Shown here: positions 51,718 through 64,000 of the stretch, one piece after another
How the letters are laid out: each line of letters begins with the position of its first letter
How positions within the stretch are numbered: the stretch's first letter is position 1
Origin: an uncultured Wenzhouxiangella sp.
GTDB lineage: Bacteria > Pseudomonadota > Gammaproteobacteria > Xanthomonadales > Wenzhouxiangellaceae
DNA: 64,000 nt
Direction of reading: 5' to 3'
Assembly (NCBI GenBank): GCA_913057195.1
Contig: CAJXNL010000004.1
Coordinates: 1 to 64,000 of the forward strand
Translations under genes and position numbers: made by a program
Notes under the pieces: model-generated
Databases searched by the model: none
Seen by the model: only the letters and a program-made list of their open reading frames with translations
What the model was told of the DNA's origin: nothing

Positions 51718-53496
51718 TTACGGGGGCCAAATGAGTAAGATCATTGGCGTTGCAGTCGTCAGCACCACAAGTTCCAATGGCAGGCCTAAGCGCCAGTAGT
51801 CGCTGAAGCGAAAACCACCTGGGCTCAAAATGAGGGTGTTATTTTGGTGGCCGATGGGCGTTAAAAACGCACATGAAGCGCCCACGGCAACCGCCATCAA
51901 AGCCGGTTCTGGCTGAATTCCGAGCCCACTGGCCGCGCTCAAAGCCACAGGGCACATCATCGCTGCGGTTGCGGCATTGTTCATAAAATCGCTCAAGGTC
52001 ATGGTAATGACCATCAGCCCTGCGATCATCATCCAGGCTTCGCCGTTGGGCAGCCCATCAAGCAGTGAGGCTGCCATGAGATCGGCAAGGCCGGTGCTGC
52101 TCATGGCGCCAGCAACTGGGATGAGCGCGCCCAGAAGAACGATGACTGGCCAATCAATCGCCGTATAGATTTTTTCCGTGCTGATCACGCCAGTGGCAAT
52201 TAAGAATAGGGCGCCCAGCAAAAAAGTAATGGCAGCAGGCAGCAGTCCAAATCCAGCGCCAACGACGGCGGACACCAATGTTGCGCCTGCCATCCAGGCA
52301 TGTCTTGGCTTGGGAACACGAAGTGACCGGTCTGCCAAGGGGACACAGCCATTATTCAAAGCGAACTCTTGAAGTTGATCAGCAGCCCCCTGCATTAAGA
52401 GCACATCGCTGGGTCGGAAACGCATGCTTCGAAGCCGAGCCACAGTCTGCGTCCCTTGCCGTGAAATCGCAAGCAGGTTGACACCATAGCGCGCACGCAA
52501 GCGAAGGCTCATCGCAGAGCGCCCGATGATGCCTGCGGTGGGCATGACGACCACCTCCATCAGGGTCGCGCCTTCGCTTTTGGATTTGTCAGTCAGTTGG
52601 GTGTCCTCAGACGGCGCAGTCATCTCAAGTCCCAATAGCCCCACCGCCTGCATCAAGGATTTTGGTTCGGCTTCAATGATGAGCGTGTCGTTTGCTCTCA
52701 GTTTTGTGTTTCCATGAGGGGCATTGAGCCGTTCGCCATGTCGGATCAGCGCGACCACTTGAGCGCCCGTTGCCTCAATGTTGGTTTCTGCCTCATGAAT
52801 CCGAAGTCCTTCGGCTTTGGCGCCCTCGGTCACGACTGCCTCTGTCAGATATTCACCGGTATCAAAATCCTCTGCATCTGCCCGGGTTCGGGCTGGGATT
52901 AACCATCGACCGGCCAGGCCGATCAACAGCAGGCCGCCTATCGCAACCACCAGGCCCACAGGAGCGAAGTCAAACATCGTAAAGCTTGTGCCGATTTGGT
53001 CTTGACGGAACCCCGCAACAATCAGATTGGGAGGCGTGCCAATCAATGTGGTCATGCCGCCCAAGATAGACCCAAATGCCAGCGGCATCAGGACTCGACC
53101 AGTGGGCATATGATGGCGTTTGGCCATTTGAATGCCAATGGGCATCAACAGGGCCAGCGCGCCGACATTGTTCATGAATGCAGATAAAAATGCGGCCAGA
53201 GCCACCAGTGCGGCAATGGCGATGCCGGGCGTGTCCGAATCGGGCAATGTGTGGCGGGTGACAGCATCCACCGCACCGGATGTTTGCAAAGCGCGGCTTA
53301 AAACCAAAATTGCTGCTACCGTAATTACAGCTGGGTGAGAAAAACCGCTAAAGGCCTCGGATGGAGGCACCAGGCCAGCAATGACGCACACCAGTAACGC
53401 AGCCAATGCCACAACATCGTGACGCCATCGGCCCCAAAGAAACAGTCCAATGGTGACAACGACAATAAGGGCGATAAGCAATTGGGGGTTGGCCAT
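51718..53496 (-). CDS. SLC13-family anion permease with TrkA-C domains
   Basis: A 592-residue inner-membrane transporter. Two halves of hydrophobic segments flank a cytoplasmic insert (about 200-390) that holds two TrkA-C-like domains (AQVVALIRHGERLNAPHGNTKLRANDTLIIEAE-type wording). The repeated motifs SAFMNNVGALALLMP with IGTPPNLI, and SDFMNNAATAAMM with TPIGHQNN, are the paired substrate and sodium sites of the DASS/SLC13 fold. Relatives carry sulfate or dicarboxylates. It starts 23 bases after imuB and may share its SOS-controlled transcript. Confidence 0.88.
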   Translation of the reverse strand: MANPQLLIALIVVVTIGLFLWGRWRHDVVALAALLVCVIAGLVPPSEAFSGFSHPAVITVAAILVLSRALQTSGAVDAVTRHTLPDSDTPGIAIAALVALAAFLSAFMNNVGALALLMPIGIQMAKRHHMPTGRVLMPLAFGSILGGMTTLIGTPPNLIVAGFRQDQIGTSFTMFDFAPVGLVVAIGGLLLIGLAGRWLIPARTRADAEDFDTGEYLTEAVVTEGAKAEGLRIHEAETNIEATGAQVVALIRHGERLNAPHGNTKLRANDTLIIEAEPKSLMQAVGLLGLEMTAPSEDTQLTDKSKSEGATLMEVVVMPTAGIIGRSAMSLRLRARYGVNLLAISRQGTQTVARLRSMRFRPSDVLLMQGAADQLQEFALNNGCVPLADRSLRVPKPRHAWMAGATLVSAVVGAGFGLLPAAITFLLGALFLIATGVISTEKIYTAIDWPVIVLLGALIPVAGAMSSTGLADLMAASLLDGLPNGEAWMMIAGLMVITMTLSDFMNNAATAAMMCPVALSAASGLGIQPEPALMAVAVGASCAFLTPIGHQNNTLILSPGGFRFSDYWRLGLPLELVVLTTATPMILLIWPP

Positions 53497-53519
53497 GAGT
53501 CGGGCAGTGGCTGATGAAT

Positions 53520-54761
53520 TCACCCAAATATACCGTGAATAAACCACCCCATGCGTGGTTTATGTTCATGAAAGACCCACAGTGTGCGTCCATTGGGTTC
53601 TTGTGCAATCCAATAATCACGTTGACATGGATTGTTGTCCCACCATCCCGTCTCAATTCGTTCTGGACCTTGTTTTAGGACCAATTGATCGCGGTGACAT
53701 GCCACAGGCTCAGGCAGCAACCAACTGGGTCGGTGCTTGGCATCATCAAGATCATTGACTTGATCGGGCTGACGCCAACGCCAAGCATGTTCAGGTTGAT
53801 GGTGGGGATAGGGTGATATACCCGTCATGGCGCGTTCACCCAGGCGGGCCTTTAAATGATCCAGCAATTGAGGCCAGTCGCCTTGCTGTTGGTTTCGGTC
53901 AAACAAATCGTTGGATGATGGGGTATGTTGACTGGTGCTTTCGCATTGAATGACAATGCCATTGATGGGTCTTTCAATGGTCAATTGATCAATTTTGAGC
54001 GTTATTAATGCTTTTAAGTGCTGTTGGTCAAAGCTTGGTTTTGCCAAAGTCAGCTCGAAAGTTAAATCTGATTGATTCGCTGAACCAGGGCGCTCATATT
54101 TACAACGAATCATGACTGCTGTTAGCGCTTGATTTCTTTTTATCAACCAACTTTTCAGCTCTTCACAGGCCTTGTCTAGGTAATGTTGAAGTCGTTGTTT
54201 GCTGGTGATGGGATCAATTAAATCAATGCGCCGATAGTACTGGTCTTGAGGATGCCATGGCTCAATCAATGTGGGCTGCTGGCCATACAGCTTTTGAATG
54301 TGAAGATTAATGGCCTGTCCAAAGCGTCGTACGCGCTGATCAATGGGCAGGGCATTGAATGCGCCCAAAGTGTCGATGCCGCATCGGTACAGGCTTTTTT
54401 GAGCCTGATCGGGCAAGGGCGTTAGATCAATGGGGCAATGATCGAGCACATTCATGAGACTGGCCTGATTGTCGCACCGAGTGCCCAGTCGTGCCATTAG
54501 ACCCGCTGCCATCGGATTTGGGGCAGTGCCGAGGCGATATTGCTGTCTCAAAGGTCTCAGTGTTTCAGTCAGATGGGTGAGGAGTGTCTCTGGTGTGGCA
54601 TACAGTTTTTGGCTTTTTTGAATCTCAACAACCAAAGTGACTTGATCAAGCCAGGTGAGTTGATCGCTGTATTCGTAGGCCACGCGGGCAATCCACTGCT
54701 GAGTTTGCGGCCATTGCTCATGGTCTTGAGATGAGCAGAAATATAAGCCCAACCAACTCAT
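53520..54761 (-). CDS. imuB: ImuB, Y-family polymerase-like mutasome subunit
   Basis: Couples DnaE2 to the sliding clamp during translesion synthesis; ImuB itself lacks polymerase activity. The 413 residues start with WLGLYFCS, where active Y-family polymerases have an Asp metal ligand, and the catalytic DE pair is missing. LPDQAQKSLYRCGIDTLGAFNALP is the helix-hairpin-helix region, followed by a little-finger-like domain. The length is short against ImuB proteins of about 450-500. It overlaps imuA by four bases. Confidence 0.88.
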   Translation of the reverse strand: MSWLGLYFCSSQDHEQWPQTQQWIARVAYEYSDQLTWLDQVTLVVEIQKSQKLYATPETLLTHLTETLRPLRQQYRLGTAPNPMAAGLMARLGTRCDNQASLMNVLDHCPIDLTPLPDQAQKSLYRCGIDTLGAFNALPIDQRVRRFGQAINLHIQKLYGQQPTLIEPWHPQDQYYRRIDLIDPITSKQRLQHYLDKACEELKSWLIKRNQALTAVMIRCKYERPGSANQSDLTFELTLAKPSFDQQHLKALITLKIDQLTIERPINGIVIQCESTSQHTPSSNDLFDRNQQQGDWPQLLDHLKARLGERAMTGISPYPHHQPEHAWRWRQPDQVNDLDDAKHRPSWLLPEPVACHRDQLVLKQGPERIETGWWDNNPCQRDYWIAQEPNGRTLWVFHEHKPRMGWFIHGIFG

Positions 54762-55381
54762 GATGCACTGAGTGTCCTGGGTGTGAGCTTGAGCGTGTTT
54801 GATTTTAGGGGTTGTGCACGACGTGTATGGGTCAGCGTCACCGTGGGGCCAGGTGCGATGGTTAAGCGCAGCGCGCTGAACGTGGTGACGGGCCTGTTCA
54901 CATCACTGTCAATTAAAAAACAAGGCGCATGCCCATATTCACACGCCAGTTGCAATCGTCTTAGATGGGTGGTTGTTAATCGCGTACTGTTTGACCAAAC
55001 CATCACAACACCGCATAAGCCACTTTGAAGTGCGTGTTCTGCCGTCCATAGGCTGTGGCTTTGGGTTCGCACAATCCATAGGCGAGTCAGGTCAATGCCC
55101 GCCTGTGCCCAAGCTTGTGGGCATGGGATCAGCGGTGGTGAAATCAGCATCACGGGCTGGCCGCGTTGCGTCTGTCGAGCCAGCAGTGGCCATGTGATTG
55201 AAAGTTCGCCACAGCCCACATGGATTGGCTGGAGCTCAATCAGTTGACCGCAAGGCCAACCGTGGCCCGGTAGACGTTGGTCCAGAGCAGATTGGCCTGT
55301 AGAGACAGTGGGTGTGGGGGGTTGGACGCGGCCACGCCAGATGTCTGTTCGGGTGTTTAGCAGCTGTTGCAATGCTTCCAT
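54758..55381 (-). CDS. imuA: ImuA, RecA-like mutasome accessory protein
   Basis: A 207-residue ImuA/SulA-like protein. TGQSALDQRLPGHGWPCGQLIEL opens a RecA-like fold and resembles RecA's own N-terminal region, but a full Walker A is missing, as in other ImuA proteins. LWIVRTQSHSLWTAEHALQSG and FLIDSDVNRPV are typical of the family. It reads into imuB. A consensus LexA operator lies 33-48 bases upstream. Base composition looks more AT-rich than the neighbours. Confidence 0.85.
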   Translation of the reverse strand: MEALQQLLNTRTDIWRGRVQPPTPTVSTGQSALDQRLPGHGWPCGQLIELQPIHVGCGELSITWPLLARQTQRGQPVMLISPPLIPCPQAWAQAGIDLTRLWIVRTQSHSLWTAEHALQSGLCGVVMVWSNSTRLTTTHLRRLQLACEYGHAPCFLIDSDVNRPVTTFSALRLTIAPGPTVTLTHTRRAQPLKSNTLKLTPRTLSAS

Positions 55382-55413
55382 GAATTCAAACGATGAGCTG
55401 TTGGGGATTAAGA

Positions 55414-55429
55414 CTGTAAATTAATACAG
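55414..55429 (-). promoter_or_regulatory. LexA operator of imuA-imuB
   Basis: CTGTAAATTAATACAG, a perfect CTG-N10-CAG with an AT-rich centre, 32 bases upstream of the imuA ATG. It matches the boxes at lexA and dnaE2 in the same window. Confidence 0.88.
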
Positions 55430-55502
55430 TTATTGTAGGTTGGTCAAGGCACAATGTGAAGCACATTGCAGGTGTTTGGTTTAAACTGGCGTTCTAGGCC
55501 GC

Positions 55503-55596
<94 letters not shown>

Positions 55597-55612
55597 TTCT
55601 AATAATTTTCTA

Positions 55613-55618
55613 TATAAT
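55613..55618 (+). promoter_or_regulatory. Possible -10 element between the tRNA genes
   Basis: TATAAT ten bases before the second tRNA-Ser gene. It lies in the 34-base spacer and no clear -35 is visible, so co-transcription of the two tRNAs is equally possible. Confidence 0.35.
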
Positions 55619-55628
55619 GGGCCCCCAC

Positions 55629-55720
<92 letters not shown>

Positions 55721-55752
55721 TCCCCCGAAGCCTTTGATCATCCCAAGAAAAA

Positions 55753-55802
55753 GCCACCATCTTGATGGTTCAACTGTGATGTTGAATCAAGCAAGCGGTG
55801 GC
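55753..55802. other. Long structured hairpin downstream of the tRNA pair
   Basis: Three nested pairings: GCCACC with GGTGGC, CTTGA with TCAAG, and TTCAAC with GTTGAA around TGTGAT. This lies in the 207-base gap between tRNA-Ser and the convergent fasciclin gene. No T run follows at once; TTTT occurs 15 bases later. It may terminate the tRNA transcript or be part of an unrecognised RNA. Confidence 0.5.
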
Positions 55803-55860
55803 AGTGGTGGGTCCTACTTTTATGAGGTGAGATGGGTGGCCAGTTTGACGCCACCAACAC

Positions 55861-55908
55861 CCCATCGCTTGGGCTGTCTTAACGAGCACAGCCCAAGCTT
55901 GGATGGGC
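55861..55908. other. Second long hairpin, 3' of the fasciclin gene
   Basis: An 11-bp perfect stem (GCTTGGGCTGT with ACAGCCCAAGC, ten-base loop) continues through a three-base bulge into CCCATC with GATGGG. It lies 17 bases beyond the fasciclin stop on that gene's 3' side. It probably stabilises or ends that transcript, though it lacks a T run. Confidence 0.5.
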
Positions 55909-55925
55909 ACTGATCAGCAAACCCT

Positions 55926-56426
55926 TTATTCGGGCAAGATGACTGCGTCAATGACGTGGATTACGCCGTTCGATGCCTCAATGTCGGCTGTGACAACGTT
56001 CGCGCCTTTGATTGTGACACCGTCGGTGGCATCAATGGCCACGCTGCTGCCTTGGACTGTGTTGGGCGTGAGCGTTTGCCCAGCAATATCAGCCGACATG
56101 ACTTTGCCCGGGAGGACATGGTAGGTGAGGATGCCTTGCAAGGTGGCCTTGTTCTCAGGCTTCAAAAGATCATCCAAAGTCCCTTCTGGCAATGCTGCAA
56201 ATGCTGCATCAGTGGGGGCAAACACTGTAAAAGGGCCGTCGCCTTTTAGCGTTTCAACCAGATCAGCTGCATCCAACGCAGCAGCCAGGGTATTGAAAGA
56301 CCCCGCGGCGACAGCGGTGTCCACAATGTCTTTTTGATCATGATTTCCATGGTTGTCGGCACTGGCCAGTGAGGCGAGAAGGGTCAGTGTGAATGTTAAA
56401 AAAATGTTTCTCAATTGTGATGACAT
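55926..56426 (-). CDS. Secreted fasciclin (FAS1) domain protein
   Basis: A 166-residue protein with a signal peptide (residues about 1-22, ending ASA-D) and one FAS1 domain. The two conserved boxes are [17 protein letters not shown] and [12 protein letters not shown], with YHVLPGKV between them. FAS1 proteins mediate adhesion or binding at the surface. The ATG at 56426 has GGGAG upstream; the frame extends to 56558 without conserved sequence. It reads away from the polysaccharide-type operon, across a 298-base gap. Confidence 0.9.
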
Positions 56427-56724
56427 GGTGTCTCCCTTAAGTGTTAGACCGTATTGCGATGTTGGTGTATGTGGTGCGGAATAAACATAACCGCACCGAG
56501 TGAAGGTTGCGTGACTTGCGCATGCCACCTCGATGGCTGAATCCGAATCAATGCGCATTTCGATCTCGCGACCAATCTAGACGACCAACAGCTGCGAGAA
56601 GGGCTGGGTCTGATTGTGACCAATATGACTGGACAATTCACAAATGGAGGGAAGAGAGAAGTGGTTTTTCGGTGATGATCGAGGCAATGGTGTGGATGGA
56701 CCTTTTGTGTTGTAGTATGGCTTC
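56427..56724. other. Divergent intergenic region
   Basis: About 300 bases between the fasciclin gene and the solute-binding lipoprotein gene. It should hold promoters for both. I see no ORF, operator or repeat that I can name. Confidence 0.4.
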
Positions 56725-57825
56725 ATGTTGAGACTAACCAAGCTCGTTTCGGTGACCTTAGTGGCCCTGATCAGTGCCTGTTCGGGAGAGGTGCAACGCG
56801 AAAACAATGAGGGATCCCAGAGCCTAAATGCAGATGTTTTTCAGATAGGCATCACAGGCGGGCTGAGTCGCATTCCTTGGGAGGTCGCCAAACGGTCACA
56901 ATTGATCAGTGCGATAGAACAAAAACACGCCTTGAGGCTGGAGTTCATCAGTTTTGCCAACGAGGCCGATGCCGTGTTGGCCTATTCTGCCGGCCAAATC
57001 GATGGGGTAACGAGCACACTCAACACGATTGTGGGGACGCTGCAGGGCAGTGCGGGGGACAGTCACCTTATTTTACTGACTGACTTTTCGCAGTCGTCTC
57101 ATGCTTTGCTCAGTAAAAGCATCGATGACATCCAGAGCTTGTCAGATCAACCCGTCCATGTCCAGTTGAACACGGCGAGTCATTATTTTCTTTTTCGTGC
57201 ACTGGAAAACGCCGGGTTGGAATTAAGCGATGTTGAGTTGATTGATGCGTCGACCTTTGATCTCCAAGAGGGAGCCATTGATGGCAGTATCGAGACCATG
57301 GCAGTGGGCGCACCACTGCTTGGGCAGCTCCGGCCATTAACCGAGTTTCGGCCAATCACCACAAGCGAGATGCTGTTTGGTGAAATGATCGGCGGTTTGG
57401 CCGTGAGTGCGGATGTTTTAGAAAGCAACTCCGCTTTGGGCGCTGCTTTGGTCGAGGTGTGGTTTGCAGCGGTTGAGGAAATTATGGCAGACGATGGGAC
57501 GTTTACGCGGGCAGGGCTTTCTGAAGTTGCTCAGCTGGCCGGACTGTCACCCAGATTGGTGGGAGAGTTGCTCTCTCCGAGAGACATCATTGCTGATCCG
57601 AAGCGTGCTTTAAGTTTGTTGAATGGGGATAATCTCGATGCAACAATCTCAGGTGGCCAGCGCTTTAGAACCGCCGCCGAGGCTGCCTCAGAAGAGTTAG
57701 ATCTTATGGCGTGCGCGTTCGAGTGTGACGGCGATGTTCTTGACAACGGAGTTGGAACACAGCTGCGGCTTGATGCAAAGTATCTTGAAGCATTTGTGCA
57801 GGGTACCAGCGGTGATGAAGGCTGA
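56725..57825 (+). CDS. ABC-type solute-binding lipoprotein, SsuA/PhnD-like
   Basis: A 366-residue envelope protein. The N-terminal hydrophobic stretch ends in LISAC, a lipobox, so Cys19 is probably lipidated. The mature part has the type II periplasmic-binding fold of the NMT1/SsuA/PhnD group (FQIGITGGLSRIPWEVAKRS, FANEADAVLAYSAGQIDGVTSTL, VHVQLNTASHYFLFRALENAGL). No ABC permease or ATPase is nearby, so it may sense or present a ligand rather than import it. It overlaps the next gene by 11 bases. Confidence 0.75.
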   Translation: MLRLTKLVSVTLVALISACSGEVQRENNEGSQSLNADVFQIGITGGLSRIPWEVAKRSQLISAIEQKHALRLEFISFANEADAVLAYSAGQIDGVTSTLNTIVGTLQGSAGDSHLILLTDFSQSSHALLSKSIDDIQSLSDQPVHVQLNTASHYFLFRALENAGLELSDVELIDASTFDLQEGAIDGSIETMAVGAPLLGQLRPLTEFRPITTSEMLFGEMIGGLAVSADVLESNSALGAALVEVWFAAVEEIMADDGTFTRAGLSEVAQLAGLSPRLVGELLSPRDIIADPKRALSLLNGDNLDATISGGQRFRTAAEAASEELDLMACAFECDGDVLDNGVGTQLRLDAKYLEAFVQGTSGDEG

Positions 57826-58378
57826 GTTATCCAATGCTTTATTCGATGCTCTGCCCAAAACAGGGTGGCTCTATCCCGATCTGACGTTATCAGCTGCCCA
57901 GATGTATGGTCAAGGCGTCAGGGCAGACGATCTCCACGCTTTGGTCGAGCGGGGGCTGGCTGAATCTAAGGTGCTGTGTCGCTGTGCACGATGCCCGGCA
58001 TGCCAAACACATCAGTGCAGCATTTGGGAGCGGTGCATGCGATGTGAGTCCGCCAATCTGACCGCCATACCTTTGTTTCACCATATTCTTTGCGCGGCAA
58101 TTTTCGAAGCGCCCAATGGGCTTGCTGCGGTCGAACGATGTGAGAAATGTGATCAGCCATTGGCAGATGAACCAGCGATGGTCGAGCCGGTGGGTGACAC
58201 TTATCGATGCCGTGACTGTGGAGGACACTCACCCGAGCCAAAACTTGCATTCTATTGTTTTGGCTGTCAGAAGGTTCACGCTTTTGATGAAGTGACGTTC
58301 CACCGCTTATGGAAGTTCAGGCGCGCCACAACCCACTCAGCGCTGACCGATTCTGTGAGGCAAAAAAACGATGTTTGA
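57815..58378 (+). CDS. Zinc-ribbon protein, TackOD1-like
   Basis: A 187-residue protein with many paired cysteines: CRCARCPAC, CMRC, CEKC, CRDC and CFGC, enough for two or three zinc ribbons, plus the FHHILCAAIFE stretch. The order of Cys pairs and the FHH-C segment resemble the TackOD1 output domain as I recall it; I could not check this. An N-terminal part (1-60) without cysteines may be a small winged or helical domain. The ATG overlaps the lipoprotein stop and the end overlaps the glycosyltransferase start. A regulatory role in the operon is a guess. Confidence 0.6.
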   Translation: MKAELSNALFDALPKTGWLYPDLTLSAAQMYGQGVRADDLHALVERGLAESKVLCRCARCPACQTHQCSIWERCMRCESANLTAIPLFHHILCAAIFEAPNGLAAVERCEKCDQPLADEPAMVEPVGDTYRCRDCGGHSPEPKLAFYCFGCQKVHAFDEVTFHRLWKFRRATTHSALTDSVRQKNDV

Positions 58379-59645
58379 TGTGCCCTATCTACTGGGTGTC
58401 TTCTTCGGAGCTGCCCCGTTGGCAACCCTGGCCACCGTGTTTATCTTCGATGTGCCTCGTGATTTGCTGGCGCTGGCGGGGGTTGCTTTGGCCCGCGGCC
58501 GTAAGTTAGGCAAGAGGCAAGGTGAGACGTTGACCGCCGGGCACGACGGTGACGTGACGGTCATTATTGCCTCATTGAATGATCCAGAAGGGGTCTTGTT
58601 AAGTTTGGAAAGTTTGAGGGCGCAGGACCTTCCGCCGGCACGCGTGATCGTTTTTAGTGATGGTTCAACCGACTGCTCTGTGGCCGTGTTGAGCACCCTG
58701 CAACGACGTGGTGAGATTGATTTGGTCGTTGTTAACGATTTCAGGCTTGGTCGGGCAGCGGCAGGCAATGTCGCGCTTCGCTACGTTGAGACCGAGTTTG
58801 TTTTATTTATTGATTCTGATACCCGCTTAGAACCTGGAGCGATTGCCGCACTCCGGCGTCGCTTACTGACGCGCCCCGAGGCCGCCGTTTGTTCTGGAAA
58901 CATCAGTGTCAGTAATCATAAAGACAGCATTTGGGCAGGTTTGCAGCAGTTGGAATACATGATCTCGATCGATTTTGGTCGAGAATTCTCAGATACACTG
59001 GGCGCAGTGGCCTGTTGCTCGGGGGCATTAAGCATGTATCGCAGCACAATGCTCCAAGACGCTGGCGGTTTATCCTCAGGATCAGGAGAGGACTTGGCCA
59101 CGACATTGAGACTGCGTCGCATGGGTTATGAGGTCCACTTTGAGGCAGACGCCTGGGCAAGAACAGCCGTGCCCTCGACGCTCAGTGGCCTGATCGATCA
59201 GCGACTGAGGTGGGATCGAGACGCTTTTAGGATACAGGTCGTGCAGTTTCACCAGCTTCGTAAGCAAGGCGCTAATGAGCCCTTGGCAAACTCGATTCAA
59301 CGCTATGATTTTGTTCTATTTACCTTTTTGCCCACGCTGATGATGCCTCTGTTCTTGCCCATACTCACACAGGTGCCTGCTGATCTGCTGCCGAGTTTTC
59401 TGGCTGGGGGCTATGTATTTTTGATGTTGCTTGCAGCATTGATTCTTGCGCCCGTATTTATTGGATATCGGGGGCAAGTGTCGGTATTTCAATTGCTGTT
59501 GCTGCCGATTTTTCCGCTTTATCAAGGCATCTTTATGAAGGGCGTTCGGCTGTATGCTTATGTCAGCGAGGCGATTTTTCATGCCTCGGCTCGAGATCGA
59601 TATGTCCCCGCTCGAGTGCGCCAACGACTCAACGGTAAGTGCTGA
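58371..59645 (+). CDS. Membrane-bound family 2 glycosyltransferase
   Basis: A 424-residue processive-type GT2 like those making cellulose, hyaluronan, poly-GlcNAc or alginate. An N-terminal membrane span is followed by the GT-A domain: VTVIIASLNDPEGV, FSDGSTD, the metal-binding FIDSDT (Asp148, Asp150), SGSGED (catalytic acidic pair) and QRLRW (277-281, the QxxRW product-gate motif). Three or four membrane spans follow (about 305-400). No PilZ domain is present. It overlaps both neighbours. The polymer cannot be named. Confidence 0.85.
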   Translation: MFDVPYLLGVFFGAAPLATLATVFIFDVPRDLLALAGVALARGRKLGKRQGETLTAGHDGDVTVIIASLNDPEGVLLSLESLRAQDLPPARVIVFSDGSTDCSVAVLSTLQRRGEIDLVVVNDFRLGRAAAGNVALRYVETEFVLFIDSDTRLEPGAIAALRRRLLTRPEAAVCSGNISVSNHKDSIWAGLQQLEYMISIDFGREFSDTLGAVACCSGALSMYRSTMLQDAGGLSSGSGEDLATTLRLRRMGYEVHFEADAWARTAVPSTLSGLIDQRLRWDRDAFRIQVVQFHQLRKQGANEPLANSIQRYDFVLFTFLPTLMMPLFLPILTQVPADLLPSFLAGGYVFLMLLAALILAPVFIGYRGQVSVFQLLLLPIFPLYQGIFMKGVRLYAYVSEAIFHASARDRYVPARVRQRLNGKC

Positions 59646-60628
59646 TGCATATTCTGCGCGGTGGTGGTCAAGCGGGCCAGCGCGATGAGCGATATAAAAG
59701 CTCAGGGCGGGTGGTGAGGCTGATATATTCTATGGCGGTATTGGCCGTCATTGCATATGCACTGTATTTTTTCGGTCGCCCCTATCTTATCCTCGAAGGA
59801 GCGGGGATCGTATCAGCACCTAAAAAAGATATCGCGGCTGATCATGTGGCTGAAGTTGAGCTTGTCCATATCGAGCCAGGTGATCGGGTATACCCGGGAG
59901 CCTTGCTTTTTACAATCAACCGCTCAGGTTTTGCTGAGCGTTTGGATGAAATTCGCACGACACTTGCAGATCGTGAGCAAGATATTGACAGAGTTCTTCA
60001 AGAGCTCAAGGTCGCCGAGCGAATGATGCCCGTGCTGAACCGCCGAGTGAGTGAATTGGGCGGTGTATTAAAGCGAGCAGACGATCAGCCTGAAATTATG
60101 GATCTTTCAACACGAAGCACCCTGCATCGTGAATATGCTGAGGCTTCACGACAGCTTGAACAGAATCGGGCGCAGCGAGAAAACTTACCTGGTCTGCTTG
60201 ATCAGTTGCAGCAAAACAAACGTGCGCTTCAACAACGCCAGTCGGAGATATTGCTGACCTGGAGAAACCGTCAGGTGGTGGCTCAGGAGGCCGGTATTAT
60301 CGGGCCTGAGGTTGTTTCTGAAGGTGAGACAGTGTTGACCGGTGAGGTTATGGCACAACTGCTCGACTCAAGTCGCCTTTATGTAATTTGGGAATTGCCT
60401 CAGCGAATGCTTCGATTGCCGCGTCTTGGCGAGCGGGTGATTGTGAAAGGTGTTCGTGTGCAAGTGACAGGGCGAGTGGATCGATTTGCCGCGATGGCTA
60501 GTCCCTCGCCCGGGGATCAACAGCGTCGTCGACGTCTTGTGTATGTCGCCATCAATCGTGAAGATGCGAAGTTATTGCCCCTAGAAAGCAGCGTGACAGT
60601 TCAGATGAATTACTTCTGGAACGATTGA
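59645..60628 (+). CDS. HlyD-type membrane-fusion protein, partner of the glycosyltransferase
   Basis: A 327-residue inner-membrane protein: one span at about 26-46, then a lipoyl-like half (VELVHIEPGDRVYPGALLFTI), a long coiled coil (about 85-200, Gln/Arg-rich) and the second lipoyl half (VVAQEAGIIGPEVVSEGETVLTGEVMAQLL) with a beta-barrel. The layout matches Alg44-like and HlyD adaptors that link a synthase to the periplasm. The ATG shares TGATG with the glycosyltransferase stop. No outer-membrane porin follows. Confidence 0.82.
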   Translation: MHILRGGGQAGQRDERYKSSGRVVRLIYSMAVLAVIAYALYFFGRPYLILEGAGIVSAPKKDIAADHVAEVELVHIEPGDRVYPGALLFTINRSGFAERLDEIRTTLADREQDIDRVLQELKVAERMMPVLNRRVSELGGVLKRADDQPEIMDLSTRSTLHREYAEASRQLEQNRAQRENLPGLLDQLQQNKRALQQRQSEILLTWRNRQVVAQEAGIIGPEVVSEGETVLTGEVMAQLLDSSRLYVIWELPQRMLRLPRLGERVIVKGVRVQVTGRVDRFAAMASPSPGDQQRRRRLVYVAINREDAKLLPLESSVTVQMNYFWND

Positions 60629-60895
60629 TCTGTCAGCTGAGCCGTAGGAGTCATGATCAGCCATAGGCTGCGATTTTAACGCGTTGATGACTGGCGCTGT
60701 CGGTGTTTCTGTGGCAGGCGATCCGTGCGATTCAGATTCAGATTTAGATTCGGTTTCAGACGCTTTTGAGGTGCTGCGTCGGACTTCAGACCAGGATGAG
60801 AGGCCCTTGGGCTTGATTGCGGGCACTTCAACATCTGCCGCACGAATTAAGAGAGTGATAAACTACCGGGATCATCGATTGTAAGGAGACAACCC
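60629..60895. other. Intergenic region before icd
   Basis: 267 bases. They hold an imperfect hexamer repeat (separate entry), the icd ribosome site (AAGGAG, 60882-60887) and presumably the icd promoter, which I cannot place with confidence. Short open frames on both strands here are low-complexity and unlikely to be genes. Confidence 0.4.
60729..60758. repeat. Imperfect tandem hexamer repeat
   Basis: GATTCA, GATTCA, GATTTA, GATTCG, then GTTTCA: about five units of a 6-base repeat with drift, about 140-165 bases before icd. Confidence 0.6.
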
Positions 60896-62149
60896 ATGGG
60901 ATTCCAACACGTCAAAATGCCTGAATCAGGCGATAAAGTGCGCATCGACAACGGCCGTTTGGTGGTCTCCGATCAGCCCATTTTGGGGTTTATTGAGGGT
61001 GATGGCATTGGTGTGGACATCACGCCCGCCTGCATGCGGGTTTGGAACGCCGCCATTGAAAAGGCCTATGGTGGCCAACGCAAGGTTCACTGGGCAGAGC
61101 TTTTCTTAGGGGAGAAAGCCGCCGGCATCTACGACGGGGACTACTTTCCCCAGGAAACCCTGGATGCCATTCAAGATTTGACCGTGGCCATTAAGGGGCC
61201 GTTGACGACGCCGGTCGGTGAGGGCTTTCGCTCGCTGAATGTCTCGTTGAGGCAAACCCTTGATTTATATGCCTGTGTTCGGCCAGTGAAGTACTACAAC
61301 GGCGTTCCCTCTCCGTTGAAAAAACCTGAAGATGTGGATGCGGTGATTTTCCGTGAGAACACTGAGGATGTCTATGCCGGACTCGAGTATGCATCGGGTA
61401 CCCCTGAGAATAAAAAGCTGGCGACATTCCTGCGCGAGCAAATGGGCGCGGACTTCTTCGAAGATGCGGGTCTCGGGATCAAGCCGGTCTCGGCGGCGGG
61501 CTCAAAGCGCTTAGTCCGAAAAGCCATCCAGTACGCCATCGACAATAACCGCTCAAGCGTGACCTTGGTACACAAAGGCAACATCATGAAGTTCACCGAA
61601 GGCGCGTTTAGAAAGTGGGGGTACGAAGTCGCGGCCGAAGAGTTTGGGGATGTCACCATCACCGAAGACGAGCTGTGGGAAAAACACGACGGGAAAGCCC
61701 CCGAGGGCAAGATTGTCATCAAAGACCGAATCGCCGACATCATGTTCCAGCTCATGCTGCTGCGGCCCGCGGAGTTCGATGTTTTGGCGACCATGAACCT
61801 CAATGGCGACTATTTGTCAGACGCCTTGGCTGCCGAAGTCGGCGGCATGGGGATTGCAGCGGGAGCAAACATGGCCGATCACGTTGCAGTGTTCGAAGCC
61901 ACCCACGGCACTGCGCCAAAATACGCCGGAAAAGATCAAGTTAACCCGAGCTCACTGATGTTTTCGGGCTGCATGATGTTTGATTACATCGGGTGGCCTG
62001 AAGTGACTCAATTAATCGAAGCGGCGTTTGAAAAAGTGGTCTCTGACAAAGTGGTGACTTACGATTTCGCAAGGCTTCTGGAAGGCTCCACGAAGGTCTC
62101 CACCAGCGGATTTGCAGATGCCCTAATTGACGCGATCAACCAAAGCTAA
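60896..62149 (+). CDS. icd: NADP-dependent isocitrate dehydrogenase
   Basis: Oxidises isocitrate to 2-oxoglutarate in the TCA cycle. The 417 residues match E. coli Icd. [19 protein letters not shown] holds the substrate-binding Ser that the kinase AceK phosphorylates in E. coli. [29 protein letters not shown] and [18 protein letters not shown] follow in order. AAGGAG is eight bases before the ATG. The next gene starts 31 bases after the stop. Confidence 0.97.
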
Positions 62150-62180
62150 TGGGCACTGGATTTGGCAGCTTGGCTCGACC

Positions 62181-63014
62181 ATGACTGAGAATGTTTGGGA
62201 GCAGGCTCGGACGGCTTTGGCCGAAAGAGATCCGTGGACCAAATGTGAGCAAGTGCAAGCCCTTTGGTCACTCGTGAGGCATCAGCCTGAGGGTTTAAAA
62301 GCCGACGACAAACCGAGTTGGTCCAGCGAGGAGCTGCCCTGCGGGCAGCCCGATCGTCCTGAGTTAATTCCACCGAATGAGCTGCCTCGGCGCGGCTTGG
62401 GATCTGTCGAGGGGCGAGTGGCTTTGATTCATGCCATTGCGCATATTGAGTTTAATGCCATCAATTTGGGTCTCGATGCGGCCTGCCGCTTCCACGGAAT
62501 GCCGGATGGCACGCACGGTACCGATCCGGGGCACTTTTATTGGGACTGGCTTAGCGTGGCCGCCGATGAGGCAAGACATTTTTTGATGTTATCTGGGCGT
62601 CTGTCAGATTTGGGCGCTCAGTATGGAGACTTGCCGGCGCACAATGGTCTTTGGGCAATGGCGGTCAAAACACAGCACGATGTGCTTGTTCGAATGGCCT
62701 TGGTGCCGCGTGTGTTAGAGGCGCGTGGTTTAGATGTCACGCCCGGCATGATCGACAAGCTCAAGCAAGCCGAGGACCACGAGACCGTCAGACGATTGGA
62801 AATCATTTTGGAAGAAGAGGAAGCGCACGTCACCATCGGGACTCGCTGGTTTCGCTATTGCTGCGGTCTGGTGGGCTTGGAGCCTGACTCAACCTTTGAT
62901 GAGCTTCTGCACACTTATTTTCAGCCGCCCCCCAAGGGGCCCTACAATGAGCCAGCAAGAAAGCGCGCGGGCTTTAGTGAGACAGAGCTTGCCCGTTTGA
63001 GAAAGAACGGATAA
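62181..63014 (+). CDS. DUF455 ferritin-like protein
   Basis: A 277-residue protein of the DUF455 family, whose fold is a ferritin-like four-helix bundle. Metal-ligand-like motifs are HIEFNAINLGLD, DEARHFLML and EEEEAHVTIG. The function is unknown; relatives include tRNA-hydroxylase-like diiron proteins. The ATG at 62181 is preferred to one 18 codons upstream inside icd. The last 41 bases overlap the 3' end of lexA on the other strand. Confidence 0.85.
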   Translation: MTENVWEQARTALAERDPWTKCEQVQALWSLVRHQPEGLKADDKPSWSSEELPCGQPDRPELIPPNELPRRGLGSVEGRVALIHAIAHIEFNAINLGLDAACRFHGMPDGTHGTDPGHFYWDWLSVAADEARHFLMLSGRLSDLGAQYGDLPAHNGLWAMAVKTQHDVLVRMALVPRVLEARGLDVTPGMIDKLKQAEDHETVRRLEIILEEEEAHVTIGTRWFRYCCGLVGLEPDSTFDELLHTYFQPPPKGPYNEPARKRAGFSETELARLRKNG

Positions 63015-63606
63015 CACCCACCGCCAATCCCTCAACGGCAAACTCTTGGCCTGATCGCACTTTGATGGGGGGGTAAGCGGGATTGTGCGCGACAAGCTCA
63101 ATGCCTCGCCCGCGACGTTTAAGCTCTTTGACAGTGATCTCATCATCGATGCGCGCGACAACGATTTGGCCCGTTCTGGCCTCAGGCGTTTTATGCACCA
63201 CCAGCATGTCACCATCGTTAATGCCTGCATCAATCATGCTGTCACCGTTGACCTTAAGCAAAAAGTGCGGTTTGGGTGAAAAGGCTGATGGATCAACAGA
63301 AAGTTGGGCTTGCTGGTGTTCGACAGCCAAAATGGGTCGGCCTGCACTCACTCGCCCAATCACAGGCAGTGATTTGGCGCTCGCCGGGTTGGAATCACGA
63401 GCGATAACCCGAATGCCTCGGGCGGTGCCTTGTATCAACTCAATCACGCCTTGACGCTCTAAGGCTTTCAGATGGCACTGCGCCGCGTTGGGTGAAGAAA
63501 ATTTGAAGTGTTTGACGATTTGAGCGCGCGTGGGCGGCCATCCGTGGCGATCGACGTGATCGGCAATGAAGTCGTAAATGGCCTGCTGGCGCTTGGTCAA
63601 TGGCAT
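62974..63606 (-). CDS. lexA: SOS repressor LexA
   Basis: Represses SOS genes and cleaves itself when RecA filaments form. The 210 residues hold an N-terminal winged helix (LTKRQQAIYDFIADHVDRHG, PPTRAQIVKHFKFSSPNAA). The Ala88-Gly89 cleavage site lies in VSAGRP, the catalytic Ser123 in GDSM and Lys160 in VKELKRRG. The recognition-helix region HFKFSSPNAAQCHL is close to that of E. coli LexA, in line with the CTG-N10-CAG boxes found here. An in-frame GTG at 63609 is an alternative start. Its own operator is just upstream. Confidence 0.96.
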   Translation of the reverse strand: MPLTKRQQAIYDFIADHVDRHGWPPTRAQIVKHFKFSSPNAAQCHLKALERQGVIELIQGTARGIRVIARDSNPASAKSLPVIGRVSAGRPILAVEHQQAQLSVDPSAFSPKPHFLLKVNGDSMIDAGINDGDMLVVHKTPEARTGQIVVARIDDEITVKELKRRGRGIELVAHNPAYPPIKVRSGQEFAVEGLAVGVIRSFSNGQALSH

Positions 63607-63613
63607 CACATTA

Positions 63614-63629
63614 CTGTATCAAAAAACAG
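63614..63629 (-). promoter_or_regulatory. LexA operator of lexA
   Basis: CTGTATCAAAAAACAG, a perfect CTG-N10-CAG, seven bases upstream of the lexA ATG. This is the usual autoregulatory site. Confidence 0.88.
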
Positions 63630-63678
63630 TTCTGGCGTCACCTGTGCTCTTGGCCAGCGTCCGAGGGACGTTGTGTGG

Positions 63679-64000
63679 TCACTTGCCGTCGTCGGGCGCC
63701 TTTCTCTGTACGGGCACATAAATGCGCTGAACCGGGTAGTTGTAGGGTCCCCAAAATCCTGTATAGAACCCAGCATAGCCCCAGCGCCGGTCGTCTTTTT
63801 CCGAGCGCTCAGGCCACAAGTAAATGCTCTGTGCAGTCACCATGGGGTAGCGGTACGTGTATTCCCCAATCAGGTTTTCGGTGAATCCCGTCAGTTCGCC
63901 AACCACGGTCACCTCTCGACCCTGCGTGTAGACCGCTGGATCTCGAAACCCGGGGCCGCAGGCCATGAATCGACCAAAATGCACATCATTGCCAACAATG
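63679..64000 (-). CDS. Slp-type outer-membrane lipoprotein (5' end outside window)
   Basis: The C-terminal 106 residues of a protein whose frame is open to the window edge. HFGRFMACGPGFRDPAVYTQGREVTVVGE and YRYPMVTAQSIYLWPE are typical of the Slp/YeaY starvation-lipoprotein family. The signal peptide and lipobox are not in view. The last 20 residues are Pro/Lys-rich. The stop lies 50 bases upstream of the lexA operator on the same strand. Confidence 0.8.
   Translation of the reverse strand, partial: IVGNDVHFGRFMACGPGFRDPAVYTQGREVTVVGELTGFTENLIGEYTYRYPMVTAQSIYLWPERSEKDDRRWGYAGFYTGFWGPYNYPVQRIYVPVQRKAPDDGK

Follow-up and report, generated by a model that had tools for sequence, protein, structure and literature searches.

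A predicted polymer-synthase operon in an uncultured Wenzhouxiangella with a TackOD1 zinc-ribbon protein as the conserved partner of its glycosyltransferase

What does a cell build with an operon that places a binding-protein-like lipoprotein and a zinc-ribbon protein ahead of a membrane glycosyltransferase and an efflux-type adaptor, and what controls the product? The window, a 64,000-nucleotide stretch of DNA from an uncultured Wenzhouxiangella sp., carries four such open reading frames (ORFs) in the same direction and in that order. They are a solute-binding-protein (SBP)-like lipoprotein resembling SsuA, TauA and TIGR03427 (56725..57825, + strand; 366 aa), with the lipobox ISAC and its Cys codon at 56779-56781; a TackOD1 zinc-ribbon protein of family PF18551 (57815..58378, +; 187 aa), with five CxxC pairs and an HxxC; a membrane GT2 glycosyltransferase (58371..59645, +; 424 aa), with DxD, GED and QxxRW motifs; and an HlyD-type periplasmic adaptor (59645..60628, +; 327 aa), with a hydrophobic segment at its N-terminus. 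Successive genes overlap by 11 nt (57815-57825), 8 nt (58371-58378) and 1 nt (59645, in TGATG), and each overlapping start is ATG. The first-pass annotation had held that the genes must be co-translated; the overlaps are confirmed, and they fit translational coupling without proving it to be necessary. Its statement that no permease, porin or modification gene accompanies the four genes is borne out by the ORFs read, no such gene lying between or directly beside them, and no ABC permease or ATPase for the lipoprotein was recognised among the ORFs read at 52000-64000. Promoter and terminator scans of the locus gave scores not above those of shuffles. The GC content of the operon (~0.51-0.54 in 1-kb windows) lies inside the flank range and two tRNA-Ser genes lie upstream, so composition neither supports nor rules out transfer, and an origin as a genomic island was set aside. 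We predict from these sequences a polymer-synthase operon in which the zinc protein is the conserved partner of the GT2 clade.

Several GT2 Pfam models matched the glycosyltransferase above cut-off, and D97, D148 and D150 (DxD), D241 and the QxxRW motif (277-281) are invariant in all 21 aligned GT2s. The hydropathy profile has five peaks, the first two overlapping, and the protein ends ~36 residues past its last hydrophobic segment. PgaC and NodC, whose products are beta-linked GlcNAc chains, are its nearest named models, both below cut-off; the best NCBIfam model, the PgaC/IcaA PNAG synthase (TIGR03937), scored 109.5 bits against a cut-off of 422.3, and PNAG synthase was rejected as a named family on that basis. 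HlyD_3 matched the adaptor with 25.2 bits against a cut-off of 22.2. The profile searches that had been proposed as a check thus place TackOD1, GT2 and HlyD_3 above their cut-offs and leave the lipoprotein with NMT1 and NMT1_2 as its only Pfam matches, below cut-off. They also agree with the earlier claim that PilZ is missing: with E up to 10 allowed, none of the four proteins matched it, a negative limited by HMMER filters that discard most weak matches. A TolC-type outer-membrane channel gene is present elsewhere in the window genome, and such a gene lies within the cassette in two related loci (L070 and L073) and one Aeromonas plasmid. Three others (L076, L080 and L085) carry genes of 670-700 residues upstream of HlyD for which Pfam returned nothing, and no channel is established there.

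The zinc-ribbon protein matches PF18551 with 64.7 bits against a Pfam cut-off of 32, covering profile positions 52-187 of 188, and the Cys and His residues of its five CxxC pairs and HxxC are unchanged in all seven aligned rows. A fold search with its predicted structure (pLDDT 78.3, pTM 0.49) returned no match under E 0.001. TackOD1 has been described, in the available part of PMC5847659, as mainly an archaeal response-regulator output domain that also occurs in some bacteria and whose functions "remain obscure"; a full-text literature search of a limited collection found either TackOD1 or PF18551 only in that 2018 paper. By Pfam, the window protein contains no GGDEF-like, receiver or PilZ domain. 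In many relatives TackOD1 is fused to a catalytically dead GGDEF-like domain, and in two, from Roseibium and Palleronia, to a receiver domain. GGDEF was recognised in 5 of the 11 bacterial relatives scanned (4 above cut-off) and unrecognised in the other 6. None of 36 aligned C-termini contains GG[DE]EF, and RxxD is kept in 27 of them (27/29 genome-locus rows and 0/7 alphaproteobacterial plasmid rows); this count represents 36 of 37 proteins, L077 being too short, and excludes the plasmid loci L168-L172 and the 109-residue protein of L066.

Does the zinc protein belong with the synthase, or is it a neighbour by chance? Of 32 loci opened in other genomes, 29 have TackOD1 next to GT2 and HlyD within the locus; TackOD1 also adjoins GT2 in 13 of the 14 plasmid records opened (17 were found), one of them haloarchaeal; the TackOD1-GT2-HlyD arrangement recurs in gamma- and alphaproteobacteria. 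From the opposite direction, a GT2 profile (A3) was run against 369 genomes of the class with at most 4 candidates scored per genome, and all 15 matches of at least 462 bits, 5 of which were not rows of the profile, fell in TackOD1 genomes, with the next score at 280. Conversely, GT2 is present in 16 of the 19 genomes that have TackOD1 above the Pfam cut-off. In a tree that took in 6 of the 97 proteins from the GT2 relatives search and omitted L155, L083, L173, L009, L010 and BgsA (L133; matched stretch under 250 residues), a branch with 97% support separates 42 of 43 TackOD1-linked GT2s from 18 unlinked ones, and the Halorussus GT2 groups among the unlinked. TackOD1 occurs without GT2 in G259 (L072), as a second copy in G331 (L086), at a contig end in G190 (L087) and in Natronococcus. 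Genome G212 has a TackOD1 of 33.5 bits with an internal stop and no GT2 match in the A3 scan, its locus being unopened. Among 190 genomes from the same class as G905, the window GT2 matched 3 at E 1e-25; TackOD1 adjoins GT2 in two of these (G905 and G1192) and was not found in the short flank available in the third (G733; GT2 238 bits). Within the order, the only TackOD1 above cut-off among 200 genomes and the only match to alignment A1 among 299 genomes are the window's own, and two contig-collection scans, with the GT2 and the TackOD1 alignments, gave no matches. On the locus survey and the 369-genome scan a chance neighbour was rejected: TackOD1 and this GT2 clade are strongly paired in both directions. 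The annotation had called a zinc ribbon in a polymer-synthase operon unusual and asked whether it always accompanies this clade; it is a conserved partner, and the arrangement is unusual only outside the clade. The expectation that all four genes would be neighbours elsewhere held in part, since TackOD1, GT2 and HlyD recur as a three-gene unit and the lipoprotein stands outside it, none of the 40 other loci carrying one like it.

What, then, feeds information into the synthase? No GGDEF match was found in the window genome; of 30 genomes in the genus, 26 have GGDEF. This genome is in effect a natural experiment: it lacks a detectable c-di-GMP-making domain yet keeps the synthase and TackOD1, and so reveals the part of the regulator that cannot be spared. 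The reading that we favour, with somewhat better than even confidence, is an Mxd-like surface-polysaccharide synthase and exporter in which TackOD1 would keep the synthase active and the signal given elsewhere by c-di-GMP would probably come from the lipoprotein. TackOD1 would be the coupling part of a synthase whose c-di-GMP input has been lost, a sensor of periplasmic ligands perhaps having taken its place. In such a machine the GT2 would polymerise a UDP-sugar and thread the polymer through the inner membrane, HlyD would hand it to the TolC-type channel of the genome, and TackOD1 would contact the cytoplasmic face of the GT2 and hold it active. As the least certain step, the lipoprotein would detect a small periplasmic ligand and act on the GT2 or HlyD, and a sensor role for it, as first suggested, is possible.

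The lipoprotein is also where the alternative readings diverge. Its match to the urea-type ABC binding protein TIGR03427 spans residues 38-360 of 366 (8.7e-32; 110.6 bits against a cut-off of 333.9), TauA matched at 2.9e-5, and a weak structural model (pLDDT 59.6) gave SsuA and TauA as best Foldseek matches, in agreement with the sequence result. This kinship with importer proteins would suit an ordinary Mxd-type exopolysaccharide operon in which the lipoprotein is the co-transcribed binding protein of an ABC importer with its permease elsewhere, and its restriction to this locus among those surveyed means that the synthase unit by itself can do without it. Such an importer is nonetheless unlikely in our judgement, as the lipoprotein gene is the overlapping first gene of the operon and its six relatives at 50-76% identity are set apart from the next match at 25% among the 7997 candidates scored, which were those sharing most words. 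Some of these relatives apparently recur with TackOD1 and GT2 on contigs of 160040 and 6168 bases matched by equal size, in a search that reached TackOD1 proteins of about 103-327 residues, and a 5892-base contig also holds an SBP relative. The tie between SBP and synthase consists of the window and three contigs equated by size.

A different role, other than sensing, would be that of an outer-membrane structural export factor, which holds the nascent polymer or the channel much as AlgK does for alginate. The lipobox cysteine C19 is unchanged in 7/7 rows and is followed by a residue other than Asp in 6/7, which under the sorting rule of E. coli points to an outer-membrane location, and the operon has no channel gene; the protein, however, resembles periplasmic binding proteins in sequence and in the fold of its low-confidence model rather than a TPR scaffold, and we consider this role quite improbable. 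Least credible, and very improbable, is that the GT2 makes no polymer and decorates a protein or lipid such as the divergent fasciclin-domain protein next to the operon (55926..56426, - strand; ORF to 56558; PF02469, 131.3 bits), whose likely start is 56426, where a signal-peptide-like stretch comes next. Adjacency aside, the QxxRW motif is of the processive type, an HlyD-type adaptor accompanies the GT2, joined in some relatives by TolC, and no fasciclin relative occurs in the 40 other loci. The fasciclin gene is thus a neighbour outside the conserved unit, which removes it as an operon partner and as the surface-role partner proposed initially.

Returning to the Mxd-like reading, a broader and more tentative proposal, which we hold to be possible but doubtful, is that TackOD1 is the constant zinc-ribbon clutch of a family of bacterial and archaeal GT2 polymer synthases with swapped inputs: c-di-GMP through a dead GGDEF with its I-site, a phosphorelay through REC, or the SBP lipoprotein in the window's cell without c-di-GMP. 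The pairing itself gives an obscure domain a testable job and might account for the action of MxdA on MxdB.

How does the operon compare with described systems? By gene order and published descriptions, the closest appears to be the Mxd machinery of Shewanella, which is nearer than the Alg8-Alg44 likeness raised at first. In the available text of PMC3691769 and PMC7666153, mxdABCD of S. oneidensis MR-1 comprises a regulator gene, the membrane GT2 MxdB and the efflux-type adaptor MxdC, with a biofilm polymer proposed as product, and the window GT2 and adaptor likewise share an operon with a regulator gene. In favour of the link, S. oneidensis CheY3 interacts with MxdA (PMC7666153), and receiver domains are fused to TackOD1 in Roseibium and Palleronia. 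Against it, PMC3691769 describes MxdA as a protein of unknown function with an indirect effect on c-di-GMP levels, and the part seen of a review (PMC8683041) ascribes c-di-GMP contact to MxdB. MxdA is also reported, in text available in part, as a c-di-GMP binder, whereas the window TackOD1 has no GGDEF-like part. Mxd further differs in having mxdD after the adaptor, where the next same-strand gene in the window is an isocitrate dehydrogenase at 60896 (named from ORF reading), and in lacking the leading lipoprotein gene. A match to an already described exopolysaccharide locus is therefore partial: the regulator, GT2 and adaptor layout is alike according to these papers, and the rest differs. 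The alginate pair Alg8-Alg44 carries PilZ on its adaptor, and an alginate-like system was rejected as the window adaptor has no PilZ match. Like the window, S. meliloti BgsBA combines a GT2 with an HlyD-like partner without PilZ, but BgsA has a cytoplasmic c-di-GMP-binding C-terminus, unlike the short tail of the window GT2, and the portions available of PMC9495663 and PMC5567048 mention no TackOD1. The pSymB ORF taken as BgsA (669 aa, from an unannotated record) scored 55 bits with the GT2 profile, against at least 462 in the 15 TackOD1 genomes, and a mixed-linkage beta-glucan synthase of this type was rejected on that score. PelD and BcsE place an inactive GGDEF beside a synthase, as do the gammaproteobacterial relatives of the window protein; TackOD1 goes unmentioned in the accessible part of PMC8461298, and the window protein is devoid of such a part. 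Cyanobacterial XcsAB-TolC cellulose export, a model proposed and unverified according to the text seen of PMC12430437, follows a similar GT2, HlyD and TolC route, although XcsA carries PilZ and the window GT2 gave no match to it. Finally, the window protein shares its five CxxC pairs and HxxC with TackOD1 of archaeal response regulators, above the Pfam cut-off, but unlike them it adjoins a polysaccharide synthase and has no REC.

The ORF reading places four genes at 56725 to 60628, all in one direction, in which a lipoprotein gene with periplasmic-binding-protein sequence is followed by genes for a TackOD1 zinc-ribbon protein of 187 residues (PF18551 at 64.7 bits, with a cut-off of 32), a membrane GT2 with DxD, GED and QxxRW motifs, and an HlyD-type adaptor. 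With ATG starts assumed, the overlaps are 11, 8 and 1 bases in gene order, in line with the 1 to 11 bases described in the first-pass annotation, which was also right that the operon has no PilZ domain (a Pfam scan of the four proteins found none) and that the adjoining fasciclin gene has the opposite orientation. The next gene downstream is a putative isocitrate dehydrogenase gene, named from the ORF reading. Tandem tRNA-Ser genes (GGA, TGA) lie upstream at 55503-55718, and a putative ImuA/ImuB-type DNA-polymerase pair (53520-55381) and a putative LexA repressor (62974-63609) were named nearby from ORF reading alone.

Thirty-two TackOD1 loci were opened from other genomes in two sets (18 and 14), and a GT2 of the window GT2's family adjoins TackOD1 in 29 of them, the very 29 that also hold an HlyD-type gene. 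In the loci opened elsewhere, the four-gene unit of the first-pass annotation stands for this TackOD1-GT2-HlyD cassette and does not extend to the lipoprotein, which occurs in 0 of 40 other loci, 37 of which have the cassette. The three exceptions among the 32 loci are those of G259, where a PhoB/PhoR-like pair and a phosphate-type binding protein come after TackOD1, of G190, where the contig ends, and of G331, where a second, incomplete TackOD1 copy has no GT2 beside it. Of the 369 genomes searched in the class, 19 have a TackOD1 score above the Pfam cut-off, and 16 of these hold the GT2; the other three are G259, G190, whose TackOD1 match at the contig end is partial, and G212 (33.5 bits, internal stop). 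The cassette GT2 at L083:9594-10707 is split over two frames, by frameshift or sequence error.

In the reverse direction, the 369 genomes were searched with a profile (A3) built from 21 cassette GT2s, and at most four candidates were scored per genome. The 28 matches separate by score into an upper group of 15 genomes, which reach at least 462 bits, and a lower group of 13, which stay at or below 280 bits; all 15 genomes of the upper group have TackOD1, and five of their GT2s are not among the A3 rows. The lower group includes G285, whose TackOD1-linked GT2 is read in two frames. A3 was built from linked GT2s and is biased in their favour, a bias that would hardly explain the ~180-bit gap. In a quick-method tree of 67 GT2s, a branch with 97% support sets the 18 unlinked rows apart from six rows of unknown context and from all but one of the 43 linked rows (42); the sole linked GT2 on the unlinked side is a long-branched Halorussus row. 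Rows from same-class genomes group tightly with Aeromonas and Plesiomonas GT2s, and on this ground the class is probably Gammaproteobacteria.

A plasmid search found 17 TackOD1 records, of which 14 were opened, from Phyllobacterium (three), Aminobacter, Methylocystis, Roseibium, Palleronia, Alisedimentitalea, a Rhodobacteraceae strain, Photobacterium, Plesiomonas, Aeromonas and two haloarchaea; 13 have a GT2 and 12 an HlyD gene. The first-pass annotation had asked whether the zinc protein always accompanies this GT2 clade: in the reverse search it does so in all 15 genomes of the upper group, and in most genome loci and plasmid records the GT2 in turn accompanies TackOD1. Judged from sequence, TackOD1 and this GT2 are regular partners.

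A TackOD1-synthase pair also exists outside bacteria: on a Halorussus halophilus plasmid (L166:6950-9911), genes for TackOD1, DUF2334 and a GT2 of a different branch follow one another with four-base overlaps; in Natronococcus, TackOD1 is present and no GT2 was found within the stretch read. On a Sinorhizobium medicae plasmid (L066:5974-8565), the GT2 and HlyD belong to the same branch as those in the window, and the gene after them encodes a zinc-ribbon protein of 109 residues with only a partial match to TackOD1. The Aeromonas caviae plasmid pKAM345_3 (29 kb, typed mobilizable) encodes TackOD1-GGDEF-like, GT2, TolC and HlyD proteins (L169:5896-8256 and L173:1-3462); its GT2 gene crosses the record start and is omitted from the gene table, as are all such genes.

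The TackOD1 ORFs of other loci mostly have 355 to 636 residues. GGDEF was matched C-terminally in 5 of 11 bacterial relatives scanned (four above cut-off) and was not recognised in the other six, namely five alphaproteobacterial plasmid proteins and L083. No GG[DE]EF motif occurs in 36 aligned C-termini; RxxD, in the position that corresponds to the inhibitory site for c-di-GMP, occurs in 27 of the 36, in 27 of 29 genome-locus rows versus 0 of 7 alphaproteobacterial plasmid rows. Two alphaproteobacterial proteins have a receiver domain N-terminal to TackOD1. The window protein is the TackOD1 domain alone, and its six listed relatives are likewise short (158-190 residues), from a search able to list short proteins only. 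No GGDEF match turned up in the window genome, which is 98.9% complete. Within the genus, 26 of 30 genomes give between 12 and 51 matches each, and besides the window genome three give none: G004, G007 and G021 (1.3-2.1 Mb, 63-95% complete).

Among 7997 candidates scored out of 5.8 billion proteins, six resemble the lipoprotein at 50 to 76% identity, and the next one stands at 25%. Contig sizes of 160040 and 6168 bases each yield lipoprotein, TackOD1 and GT2 relatives, and 5892 bases yields lipoprotein and GT2 relatives; equal-sized contigs are taken to be the same.

How would such an operon work? The GT2, which among named models comes closest to PgaC and NodC and scores under the cut-off of each, would polymerise a UDP-sugar, and the HlyD protein would hand the chain on to an outer-membrane channel. 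In L070, in L073 and on the Aeromonas plasmid, the cassette itself includes a TolC-type gene; the window genome has one TolC-type frame, of 466 residues, away from the operon. In two Rhodobacterales cassettes, galE (UDP-glucose 4-epimerase) follows HlyD (L171:9672-10682, L172:9445-10455), a hint of a galactose-type precursor. TackOD1 would keep the synthase in its active state, with c-di-GMP input through the GGDEF-like domain or phosphorelay input through the receiver domain of relatives; in the window the c-di-GMP input would be gone, and the lipoprotein may stand in for it.

We lean towards reading the operon as an Mxd-like polymer synthase in which TackOD1 is the coupling part, the c-di-GMP input has been lost and the lipoprotein is perhaps the signal source in its place. 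A broader reading, in which TackOD1 is the constant clutch of GT2 synthases and only the input is swapped (c-di-GMP, receiver domain or the window lipoprotein), is put forward tentatively and is rather doubtful. Caution applies to both the coupling and the swapped input because GGDEF was recognised in only five of the 11 relatives and the argument from short relatives is weak.

MxdA of Shewanella oneidensis, which we take to have a degenerate GGDEF motif, may contain TackOD1. In published accounts, MxdA is reported as a c-di-GMP binder, CheY3 interactor and probable trigger of the Mxd machinery, MxdB as a GT2 and MxdC as an efflux-pump homologue (PMC7666153, PMC3691769); differing accounts describe MxdA function as unknown with c-di-GMP affected indirectly (PMC3691769), or have c-di-GMP act on MxdB (PMC8683041). 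The proposed TackOD1 control with c-di-GMP or phosphorelay input would agree with the MxdA reports from S. oneidensis. Two tested features of Mxd, the c-di-GMP-binding part and mxdD, are missing in the window, and for this reason the operon is not classed as an Mxd member; the likeness, drawn from gene layout and published descriptions of Mxd, would lie in its way of working.
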